Source: Streptomyces sp. NBC_00440 (GTDB taxonomy: Bacteria > Actinomycetota > Actinomycetes > Streptomycetales > Streptomycetaceae). From it: a stretch of 64,000 nucleotides of DNA. Every line of letters begins with the position of its first letter. Within the stretch, counting starts at the first letter, position 1. The position numbers and the translations under genes are program-made. The stretch lies in contig NZ_CP107921.1 of NCBI RefSeq assembly GCF_036014215.1, positions 4,588,501 through 4,652,500 on the forward strand, given 5' to 3'. The notes under the pieces were generated by a model. It made no database searches and was not told the origin of the DNA. It saw only the letters and a program-made list of their open reading frames with translations. Positions 32,444 through 42,734 of this stretch are shown in pieces.

Positions 32444-33090
32444 TTTCCGGGAGGTCCGGGGTTCGCACCCCGGACAACCGCAGTCCGGGCTCCGGGGGGC
32501 GCCCCCCGGAAAGCCGCAGCGATACGCACCATCCGGGCCCGGTGGCATTCCGTCGCCGCCGCTTCCACGAGCCGTACCAGGTCGGGAGCGCCGCCCCGCT
32601 CCCCGAACCGGCTGAACACGGGCAGGGCCGGCTCCACATCGCGCCCCGGCCCGGGGGGTCGCAACCAGCGGGCGGCCCCCTGTGCGCCGCGCAGTCCGGG
32701 AGGCACGGGAGCCCCGATCAGGCCGCCCGCGCCCATGGCGGTCAGATCCAGTGCGATCCCGCCCCACTCCAGCCAGTCGAGCAGCCCCGGCAGCTCGTCG
32801 GCGCTGCCCGCCGCCACCAGCAGCCGCACCCGGGAGCCCTCCAGCGCCACCGGTCCCGTGACGGGCGTCCTGCGCAACAGCGCGAACCCGGCGTCGGACG
32901 GCAGGTCGAGTACGTCGAAACGCAGCCCGGTCAGCAGCCGGACCGGCGGTCCGGCCACCGCGGCCCAGCCCAGCCGGGACTCGTACCAGTGCAGGGTGCT
33001 GTCGGCACTGCCGCTTCCGGTTCTGGCGCTTCCGGTGATGGTGCGCGTGCTGTCGGCCGGTTCGCGGGGGGACGGAACGGTACAGGCCAT
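32422..33090 (-). CDS. Hypothetical protein resembling a degenerate Prim-Pol N-terminal domain
   Basis: This 222-aa protein is not from a family I can name firmly. The block WYESRLGWAAVAGPPVRLL followed by LTGLRFDVLDLP resembles the opening of bifunctional primase/polymerase domains (GW, then TG and a vlDvD metal site), but the second metal Asp is replaced. The N-terminus is Ser/Thr/Arg-rich. The last 30 residues are encoded by a GC-rich repeat and by the reverse strand of lsr2, overlapping it by 22 nt, so the original stop may have been lost. GGGAG precedes the ATG. Confidence 0.6.
   Translation of the reverse strand: MACTVPSPREPADSTRTITGSARTGSGSADSTLHWYESRLGWAAVAGPPVRLLTGLRFDVLDLPSDAGFALLRRTPVTGPVALEGSRVRLLVAAGSADELPGLLDWLEWGGIALDLTAMGAGGLIGAPVPPGLRGAQGAARWLRPPGPGRDVEPALPVFSRFGERGGAPDLVRLVEAAATECHRARMVRIAAAFRGAPPGARTAVVRGANPGPPGNQPLAFS
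32492..32511. terminator. Perfect GC palindrome downstream of lsr2
   Basis: Twenty bases are exactly self-complementary (TCCGGGGGGC and its complement GCCCCCCGGA). The site is 48 nt past the lsr2 stop, within a REP-like GC-rich stretch (32461-32515), and also lies inside the end of the convergent gene. There is no T-run; it may act as a bidirectional terminator or as a repeat relic. Confidence 0.55.
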
Positions 33091-40528: not shown

Positions 40529-40567
40529 GAGCGGGCCCCGGATGCGCGATGCATCCGGGGCCCGCTC
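40529..40567 (+). terminator. Bidirectional hairpin between MFS gene and cseC
   Basis: A 17-bp perfect stem (GAGCGGGCCCCGGATGC and its complement) with GCGAT loop lies between the convergent MFS and cseC genes. No T-run follows on either side; hairpin termination of this kind is common in high-GC actinobacteria. Confidence 0.7.
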
Positions 40568-40609: not shown

Positions 40610-41923
40610 TCACGAGGGCCGGGTCAGGGCGCGGAAGCTTCCCGTGACGGTCGGCGCGTGTTCCGGGAGCCAGAGCACCGCGATGGCGCCGCCCGTCTCC
40701 TTCGCCCCCTCCGGTGCCGCGTTGCGGAACGTCAGCCGCGCCCCGAGCACCTTGGCCTGCCCGGCCGCGATCGTCAGCCCCAGACCGTGCCCGACACCCG
40801 CCCGGTCGCTGCTGCCCGTACGGAAGCGGCTCGGCCCGTCCCGCAGCAGCGTGTCGGGGAAGCCGGGCCCGTGGTCGCGCACCCGCACCACCCGTCCCTC
40901 GACCGTGACCTCCACCGGCGTCCCGCCGTGCTTGGCCGCGTTGCCGAGGAGATTGCCGAGGATCCGCTCCAGGCGCCGCGGATCGGTGTTGACCCAGGAC
41001 TCGTGCACCACCCGGACCTGCGCGTCCGGCGCCACTATCGACACCCGGCGGCTGACGAACTCGCCCAGCGCGATCTCCTGGAGCTCGGCCCGCTCGGACG
41101 CGCTGTCCAGCCTGGCCACCTCCAGTACGTCCTCGACCAGGGTCCGCAGCGCCTGCGCCCGGTTGCGTACCAGCTCGGTCGGCCTGCCGGGCGGCAGCAG
41201 CTCCGCGGCCGTCAGCAGCCCGGTCACCGGCGTACGCAGCTCGTGCGCGATATCGGCCGTGACCCGGCGCTCGGCCTCCACCCGCTCCTGCAGGGTGTCG
41301 GTCATCGCGTCCACGGCGCGGGCCAGCTCATCCGTCTCGTCCCGTACGAAACCGCCGATGGCGGCCCGCACCCGGACGTCCGTGCCGCCCTGTGCCACCT
41401 TGGTCGCGGCCGCGGCCGCCTTGCGCAGCCGCCGCGAGAGCTGGCCGCCGATCAGCACGCCCAGCGCGCTGCCCCCGAGCACCACCGAGACCGAGCCGAT
41501 GATCAGCGCCCGGTCGAGGTCCTGCAGGACGGAGGCGCTGCTGCCGTAACGGCTGTGCAGTGAGAGCACGTCGCCGTCGGAGAGCGGGGCGGCCGCCCAG
41601 ACGTCGGGGATCCCGTTGGAGTGCTCGACGACCAGGGTGGAGATCCGGTTCTCGGCGGCCCGGCGCCGCAGCTCCCTGGGCAGGCTGGGGTCATTGACCT
41701 TGGAGCCGAGCTGCGGCTGCTGCTGTTGTTGCTTCTTCGCCTCGAAGAGCCGCAGGGCGAACTGGAGCCGGACGACCTGAGTGTCCCGTGCGTTGTCGAG
41801 CATGGAGACGCGGGCCGCGTTGTGGACGACGAGGCTGAGCGCGACAGCGATGAGCGCGCCGACCCCGGCGATGGCGATGCTGATCTTCCACCGGACGCCG
41901 GTGCGCAGGGCGAGGTGCTTCAT
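40610..41923 (-). CDS. cseC: Sensor histidine kinase CseC of the SigE envelope-stress system
   Basis: The 437-aa protein has two membrane segments (about residues 12-34 and 140-165) around an extracytoplasmic domain with a poly-Gln stretch, then a HAMP domain. The phospho-acceptor segment is VTADIAHELRTPVTGLL, and the HATPase has ERILGNLLGNAAKHGG, VRDHGPGFPD and GHGLGLTIA. In Streptomyces, CseC senses cell-wall stress and phosphorylates CseB to switch on sigE. Its first 12 residues are duplicated in a leader frame upstream, and its ATG overlaps the leader stop (ATGA). Confidence 0.93.
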   Translation of the reverse strand: MKHLALRTGVRWKISIAIAGVGALIAVALSLVVHNAARVSMLDNARDTQVVRLQFALRLFEAKKQQQQQPQLGSKVNDPSLPRELRRRAAENRISTLVVEHSNGIPDVWAAAPLSDGDVLSLHSRYGSSASVLQDLDRALIIGSVSVVLGGSALGVLIGGQLSRRLRKAAAAATKVAQGGTDVRVRAAIGGFVRDETDELARAVDAMTDTLQERVEAERRVTADIAHELRTPVTGLLTAAELLPPGRPTELVRNRAQALRTLVEDVLEVARLDSASERAELQEIALGEFVSRRVSIVAPDAQVRVVHESWVNTDPRRLERILGNLLGNAAKHGGTPVEVTVEGRVVRVRDHGPGFPDTLLRDGPSRFRTGSSDRAGVGHGLGLTIAAGQAKVLGARLTFRNAAPEGAKETGGAIAVLWLPEHAPTVTGSFRALTRPS

Positions 41924-42040
41924 GTCGGCGTTCCTGTTCGACGCGGGCCGACCACGGGGCTTCTCCGGCCGGGGGTCCGGGGGTTGTCCCCCGGTGGACG
42001 CAGCCACCGGACGCCGGTGCGCAGGGCGAGGTGCTTCATG
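41888..42040. repeat. 37-bp direct repeat flanking a 79-bp insertion at the cseB-cseC junction
   Basis: The 37 bases at 41888-41924 and 42004-42040 are identical. They cover codons 1-12 of cseC plus the overlapping end of cseB. The 79 bp between them contain a perfect GC hairpin (CCGGGGG at 41977-41983 and CCCCCGG at 41988-41994) resembling other REP-like elements in this window. Confidence 0.95.
41920..42039 (-). CDS. 39-codon leader peptide gene derived from duplicated cseC start
   Basis: Reading from the ATG that overlaps the cseB stop (ATGA), the frame gives MKHLALRTGVRW, identical to CseC residues 1-12, then 27 unrelated Pro/Arg/Gly-rich residues and a TGA. That TGA overlaps the real cseC ATG, again as ATGA. 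The ancestral cseB-cseC coupling therefore seems split into two couplings by the duplication. The peptide itself probably has no function; translating it may keep ribosomes feeding into cseC. Confidence 0.65.
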   Translation of the reverse strand: MKHLALRTGVRWLRPPGDNPRTPGRRSPVVGPRRTGTPT

Positions 42041-42734
42041 CCTTCAGCTTGTATCCGAAGCCGCGGACCGTTTCGATCCGGTCCTGTCCGATCTTTGTCC
42101 GCAGCCGCTGCACATGGACGTCCACGACCCGGGTGTCACCGCCCCAGCCGTAGTCCCAGACCCGCTCCAGGAGCTTGTCGCGGGAGAGCACCGTGCCCGG
42201 CGCCGAAGAGAACTCCAGGAGCAGCCGCATCTCGGTCGGGGTCAGCGCCACATGGGTGCCGCTCCTGCGCACCTCCATGCCCTCCGTGTCGACCTCGATG
42301 TCGCCGAAGGCCAGCACGCCGCGCTCGTCCGGCTCGGCGTCACTGTCCGTACCTGTGCCGCTCGCATGTCCGAACCGGCGGAGAACGGCCCGGATGCGGG
42401 CCACCAGGACCGCGCCGTCGAACGGCTTGGTCACGTAGTCGTCGGCTCCGGCCTCCAGCCCCAGCACCACGTCGATCGAGTCGGCGCGGGCCGACAGCAT
42501 GATCACCGGGACGGTCGACTGGTCACGGATCCGGCGGCACAGGGAGACCCCGTCAAGCCCCGGCAGCATGACGTCGAGCAGGGCGATGTCGGGCTGGTTG
42601 GTGCGGAACGCGTCGAGTCCGGAGAGCCCGTCGGGCATCGCGGTGACGCGGAAACCGTCCCGTTCCAGGGCGAGCTGTGTCGCCTCGCGGATCACATCGT
42701 CGTCCTCGACGAAGAGGACATGGGTCTCGGCCAT
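42036..42734 (-). CDS. cseB: Response regulator CseB
   Basis: This 232-aa OmpR-family regulator has receiver-domain acidic residues FVEDDD, phospho-acceptor Asp in DIALLDVMLPGLDG (about residue 54) and a C-terminal winged helix with LTPTEMRLLLEFSSAPGTVLSRDKLLERVW and VDVHVQRLRTKI. Position after sigE and cseA and before cseC identifies it as CseB, which activates the sigE promoter. Its stop overlaps the ATG of the leader peptide gene. Confidence 0.95.
   Translation of the reverse strand: MAETHVLFVEDDDVIREATQLALERDGFRVTAMPDGLSGLDAFRTNQPDIALLDVMLPGLDGVSLCRRIRDQSTVPVIMLSARADSIDVVLGLEAGADDYVTKPFDGAVLVARIRAVLRRFGHASGTGTDSDAEPDERGVLAFGDIEVDTEGMEVRRSGTHVALTPTEMRLLLEFSSAPGTVLSRDKLLERVWDYGWGGDTRVVDVHVQRLRTKIGQDRIETVRGFGYKLKA

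Follow-up and report, generated by a model that had tools for sequence, protein, structure and literature searches.

The junction between the response regulator gene cseB and the sensor kinase gene cseC carries a small hairpin element set between two copies of the cseC start, in an arrangement that leaves both genes whole and linked by overlapping stop and start codons. Judging from comparisons of sequence, we lean toward the view that a mobile hairpin element inserted here with a long target duplication and that the upstream duplicate acts as a carrier cistron coupling cseC to cseB. Below, we describe this junction in the stretch of DNA that we analyzed (64,000 nucleotides, called the window), its counterparts in related genomes, and the family to which the hairpin belongs.

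A duplicated cseC start between cseB and cseC

All features of the locus described here are on the minus strand, with a sigma-factor gene upstream of cseB and cseC in an order like that of sigE-cseA-cseB-cseC, which the available part of a published account gives as the known operon order (PMC6767563). cseB (positions 42036 to 42734 of the window) encodes a 232-amino-acid response regulator with Pfam Response_reg and Trans_reg_C domains, and cseC (40610 to 41923) encodes a 437-amino-acid sensor kinase with HAMP, HisKA, and HATPase_c domains. As an earlier note on this DNA had claimed, the cseC start is duplicated: a repeat search found a 37-bp sequence, spanning the end of cseB and codons 1 to 12 of cseC, at 42004 to 42040, where it holds the cseB end and a copied cseC start, and again at 41888 to 41924, where it holds the working cseC start. 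The two copies are identical, without a mismatch, and lie 116 bp apart from start to start with 79 bp between them; the insert thus sits at codon 12 of cseC, with 37 bp of target on both sides. The list of open reading frames (ORFs) bears out the note's 39-codon leader as well (41920 to 42039), with an ATGA overlap at either end: the leader ATG overlaps the TGA of cseB, and the leader TGA overlaps the cseC ATG at 41923. The leader is intact in Streptomyces sp. NBC_01306 and in a second genome, G023.

The 79 bp between the repeats consist of a 39-bp copy of the hairpin element (41965 to 42003) and 40 bp of filler (41925 to 41964). The perfect GC hairpin that the note had placed here is present as a 7-bp stem with a 4-nucleotide (nt) loop (41977 to 41994; CCGGGGG-ACAA-CCCCCGG), and G023 keeps the stem with a changed loop. 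The insert does not surpass shuffled sequences in fold energy (z of -0.03 for 79 nt as DNA and 0.14 for 121 nt as RNA), so it is the conservation of the hairpin within a family, not its stability, that makes it notable. No promoter or terminator was found in the insert. Elsewhere at the locus, one terminator-like site lies inside cseC on the opposite strand, and a perfect 17-bp inverted repeat directly past cseC (40529 to 40567), between convergent genes, is a plausible terminator.

Insert-bearing and empty junctions in relatives

We found an insert of equal length in NBC_01306, whose CseC is 100% identical to that of the window (among the best 80 of at least 565 stretches), and in G023, which is 94% identical to the window over 541 bases. 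In Streptomyces sp. A 4/2, the next nearest to the window group and G023 on a cseB-cseC tree, the junction is a plain ATGA that lacks exactly the 116 bp. An assembly artifact is thus ruled out, since NBC_01306 and G023 also carry the insert and the A 4/2 site is empty. The duplicated piece of G023 differs from that of the window by one C-to-T change, which is present in both copies. This shared change indicates that the copies evolve together, so their identity says little about age and is no sign of a recent duplication.

Inspection by eye also placed the element at the cseB-cseC junctions of NBC_00083, TRM49041, and, in a more degraded form, MUM 203J. NBC_00083 has a duplicated cseC start as well, with the break at the same codon. 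All three genomes branch elsewhere on the tree, apart from the window group. Such scattered junctions could reflect either repeated insertions or one old insertion followed by frequent loss through recombination between its flanking repeats.

A dispersed family of hairpin elements

The first 39 bp of the insert match the element consensus CTGYRTYY-CCCGGGGG-N4-CCCCCGGACCCCCGGC. Three copies in the genome of the window match this long pattern at one mismatch or fewer, each set between long direct repeats: one at the end of dnaJ (flanking repeat of 56 nt, 91% identity), one at the end of a GntR-family gene (34 nt), and one at cseB-cseC (37 nt). A shorter pattern, at up to three mismatches, is found in 18 places in this genome, with long repeats only at those three. 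The strict pattern is present in 74 of 150 Streptomyces genomes, in which a reversed control pattern had no match. In an order-wide draw, 110 of 197 genomes carried the pattern; it was found in 0 of 15 genomes of other families, and one genome of another genus in the same family had three copies. The note had likened the hairpin to other REP-like elements nearby, and a dispersed family does exist, but the likeness is weak within the window, where the 20-base element core has a single match at up to three mismatches, its own site. A weaker relative of the longer pattern (three mismatches, no flanking repeat) lies at 32485 to 32510 of the window.

We found no enzyme for movement of the element. 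The genome's only match to a Y1 (IS200-like) transposase lies in its outer part (L341, G000:C1:8301480-8301731), and a link to a RAYT transposase gained no support, the stretch around this gene holding only chance-like three-mismatch element matches. A larger autonomous copy was rejected: among 57 loci, those without a near repeat had no distant repeat (160 to 1,400 bp) above the control, with a best score of 12 versus 14. Of two blastn searches of plasmids, both weakened by low-complexity filtering and the first made with a partial query, one gave an irrelevant short match in Bosea and the second was empty. Twelve element loci compared with Rfam yielded three matches, each under its gathering score. 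The literature searched, to which subscription papers contributed little, gave no account of the element or its long repeats, which is weak evidence that none exists.

Long direct repeats flank about half of the element copies

We scored flanking direct repeats (score of at least 20 within 160 bp, one element per locus) at 110 loci from the listed matches and at the 3 copies of the genome itself. Such repeats, 22 to 118 nt long, flank 51 of these 113 copies among the matches listed, and they flank 13 of 27 newly drawn loci that were the first listed matches of the order-wide search. Only 1 of 220 controls shifted by 330 bp and 1 of 766 positions chosen at random in other loci had such a repeat, and the rate at cseC 3' ends, 4 of 320 positions (four overlapping positions per locus) at a score of at least 20, was above that of random positions. 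With about half of the examined copies between long direct repeats, the duplication is not private to cseC, and the earlier picture of a peculiarity of its start needs correcting. The 62 copies without such a repeat may be older or otherwise formed.

In 41 of the 51 repeat-flanked copies, the left repeat stops 7 to 9 nt short of the core pattern, which gives the element one fixed end. On the right side, 0 to 109 bases of filler follow. This filler does not resemble the sequence beyond the repeat (similarity of 0.297 versus 0.298 in 37 loci), which speaks against a decayed duplication as its origin and leaves the element with only one clear end. Two or more element copies form tandem arrays at 7 of the 113 loci. 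The same 39-bp core is present at 20 or more different targets, counted as clusters that over-merge loci whose tandem arrays contain the element.

The targets are mostly gene ends. In 32 of the 51 copies, the gene-side repeat contains the stop codon of a long ORF to which the element is antisense. The automatic labels, some of them wrong (at L283, for example, the target is a tRNA), divide the rest into 10 unassigned copies, 4 at sense starts, 2 at antisense starts, 2 of other kinds, and 1 at a sense 3' end; the sole sense 3' end is the cseB-cseC locus, labeled by cseB. Because the end of the target gene is duplicated, the gene stays whole despite the element. Pfam matches for ten target proteins include DnaJ, citrate synthase, an EngA-type GTPase, proline dehydrogenase, chlorite dismutase, and a response regulator, and a tRNA-Lys gene accompanies the element and its long repeats at two loci, L244 and L283.

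Two targets were compared across genomes. For the GntR gene, at least five of the 23 relatives displayed (L343, L345, L346, L347, and L353) have an end that lacks both the element and a second copy in the 90 bases viewed, G023 has three repeats and two elements, and lineage-specific bases are common to the repeat copies inside each genome. The second target, the end of an ABC-transporter gene, has a 92-bp unit in nine loci, of which two have weak repeats, and mean repeat identity is 0.933 within a genome versus 0.88 between genomes. These loci fit a mobile mini-element that would duplicate long target stretches, with repeat-driven gain, loss, and conversion afterward.

Our proposed sequence of events is that the element would arrive as a mobile mini-element, that insertion or a step linked to it would duplicate a long stretch of target, and that the gene would survive wherever the duplicate includes its end. 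On this basis we advance, tentatively and with somewhat less than even confidence, a new kind of bacterial mini-element. It would be a roughly 39-bp hairpin that lacks a known transposase, has a single fixed end, and sits mainly at the ends of genes, where one orientation predominates. It would duplicate a variable length of target, from about 30 to more than 100 bp, and thereby leave genes such as dnaJ intact; where genes overlap, the duplicate would be a carrier cistron that hands on ribosomes. A competing explanation, which we rate as a real but lesser possibility, is that the long repeats are ordinary tandem duplications aided by the hairpin through replication slippage or template switching, with the element as passenger or trigger. 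The wide variation in repeat length, the tandem arrays (including that at the G023 GntR gene), and the failure to find an enzyme are all consistent with slippage, but the same core occurs at unrelated targets and is missing where orthologous sites are empty, which requires some route of arrival, and the fixed left end also speaks for an element that inserts.

Stop-start chains at the cseB-cseC junction

We compared 176 cseB-cseC junctions, 171 of them with distinct cseB after removal of 5 with identical cseB, taken from 96 of 101 genomes (weaker best matches in G037, G047, G050, G073, and G088 were left out) and from a second junction search of which the best 80 of at least 565 stretches were kept; the cseC start of each genome was the one reached in frame, not the annotated start. 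A direct overlap of the cseB stop with the cseC start, which the note had expected of relatives that lack the insert and which A 4/2 has, is found in 53 of the 171 distinct junctions. Another 43 combine an insert with a start codon that overlaps the cseB stop, and 75 have no overlapping start codon at all, so the overlap at the cseB stop is dispensable in the genus.

Of the 43 insert junctions, 29 are chained to cseC by one to four mini-ORFs, 10 lengthen CseC by an in-frame extension, and 4 are uncoupled; that is, 29 of the 33 overlapping starts that are out of frame reach cseC through mini-ORFs laid end to end. When the insert letters were resampled and the length was shortened by 0 to 2 bases, the expected shares of chained, in-frame, and uncoupled junctions were 21, 26, and 53%, a test with survivorship bias because uncoupled junctions may decay into the no-overlap class. 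On a tree of cseB alone, one parsimony reconstruction gave 12 gains of the chained state, 6 of the in-frame state, and 4 of the uncoupled state (P of about 7e-4 for chained), and the chained state taken alone requires a minimum of 17 changes. The four distinct junctions whose overlapping-start leader misses cseC are L053, L104, L178, and L202.

Chains of several links are also seen. In Streptomyces lateritius (L207), four chained mini-ORFs of 20, 6, 6, and 6 codons lie between cseB and cseC, the last three being 17-bp tandem repeats that are each a complete stop-start mini-gene. The repeat-rich leaders of three junctions from S. rubiginosohelvolus and S. globisporus (L150, L152, and L153), of 36, 60, and 28 codons, respectively, all end exactly at the overlapping cseC start.

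The leader frame is kept while its peptide changes. In the one comparison made, window versus G023 over 40 codons, the leader shows no indel and differs by 2 synonymous and 7 replacement codon changes, and the ratios of synonymous to replacement changes are 30:5 in cseB and 56:7 in cseC (Fisher P of 6e-4 and 7e-5, respectively, against the leader). By this measure the leader peptide is not conserved and its frame is kept, as would be expected of a carrier cistron; the peptide probably has no role of its own, and the frame is probably what matters.

Stop and start codons overlap at the leader ends, as termination-reinitiation calls for. A ribosome terminating at the cseB TGA would restart on the overlapping leader ATG, pass through the hairpin, stop at the leader TGA, and restart on the overlapping cseC ATG. 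The insert also supplies a Shine-Dalgarno-like AGGA in the filler (41932 to 41935), 8 nt upstream of the cseC ATG, which probably adds some direct initiation at cseC. One could suppose that the insert acts mainly as this ribosome-binding site for cseC and that the leader is a by-product that is hardly translated. We consider this unlikely, even though ACAGGA-like motifs precede cseC in several further inserts (for example, L040, L154, L169, L170, L175, and L176, by eye), the leader peptide varies, and many junctions have no overlapping start, because it does not account for the frame bias of the inserts, of which 4 of 43 are uncoupled against the 53% expected. Coupling kept through the leader, as the note proposed, is thus the reading that the frame comparison favors, although its strict form is opposed by the AGGA and by the 75 junctions without an overlap; direct initiation through the AGGA may share the work with the leader. 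The shift in CseB:CseC ratio and in response gain that the note suggested is a possible further effect.

The cseC frame is open upstream to an in-frame GTG (42005 to 42007), also in NBC_01306 and G023, and a start there would give a 465-amino-acid protein, lengthened by 28 residues through the insert. The 10 in-frame extensions among the 171 junctions provide a parallel, but we regard this start as improbable because the duplicated ATG start retains the form found in plain-junction relatives, which start at ATG.

Relation to known repeat elements

Mycobacterial interspersed repetitive units (MIRUs), which reportedly were first described between the two-component system genes senX3 and regX3, are the closest precedent. 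In the part of a recent account available to us, they are described as seemingly mobile, inserted at start codons, with an internal ORF coupled to the gene at -4 nt (PMC12548453, citing Supply et al. 1997). The likeness lies in a mobile-looking repeat at a start codon and a small ORF coupled by a 4-nt overlap. In MIRUs, however, the coupled ORF is inside the repeat, whereas the leader described here starts in the copy of the target gene, ahead of the element; here, too, the hairpin lies between long direct repeats and is antisense at gene 3' ends in most repeat-flanked copies. Because the coupled ORF begins in the target duplicate, we do not class the cseC insert as a MIRU, a separation made by description.

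REP elements and REPINs are short GC-rich hairpins dispersed through genomes, with RAYT transposases. The element resembles them as a short GC-rich dispersed palindrome but differs in its long flanking direct repeats and in having only poor matches near the genome's one Y1 transposase. Prokaryotic miniature inverted-repeat transposable elements (MITEs) are described, in the available part of one source, as small and noncoding, with direct repeats that wane with time (PMC10969869). Within the limits of that description, our element is likewise small, noncoding, and between direct repeats, and for repeats arising from insertion we have the 51 repeat-flanked copies and empty sites at two loci, cseB-cseC and GntR, although a separate step of duplication may have made the repeats. 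It is unlike MITEs in the length of its repeats and in being GC rich rather than AT rich. The same source, as far as available, cites Rickettsia palindromic elements of about 150 bp under in-frame gene fusions (PMC10969869); these too are palindromic repeats that enter protein-coding genes, but here the gene would be kept by its duplicated end and not by in-frame fusion. Scars of integrated elements, with a tyrosine integrase restoring gene ends between attL and attR, are a highly improbable source of the element and its repeats, since the restoration of gene 3' ends, including that of tRNA-Lys, by direct repeats of fitting length is outweighed by the presence of one 39-bp core at so many different targets and by the lack of a larger version with a distant repeat in 57 loci.

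Implications

These findings join two things that are usually apart: a dispersed repeat that copies a gene end and so spares its target, and a chain of translation that would withstand insertion because what is inserted is a stop-start mini-gene in its own right. We know of no bacterial transposition mechanism with target duplications of such length, which makes the enzyme or repair route a testable question. The cseB-cseC junction, with lineages that have zero to four mini-cistrons, would offer a natural series for asking how reinitiation sets the regulator-to-kinase ratio in an envelope stress system.
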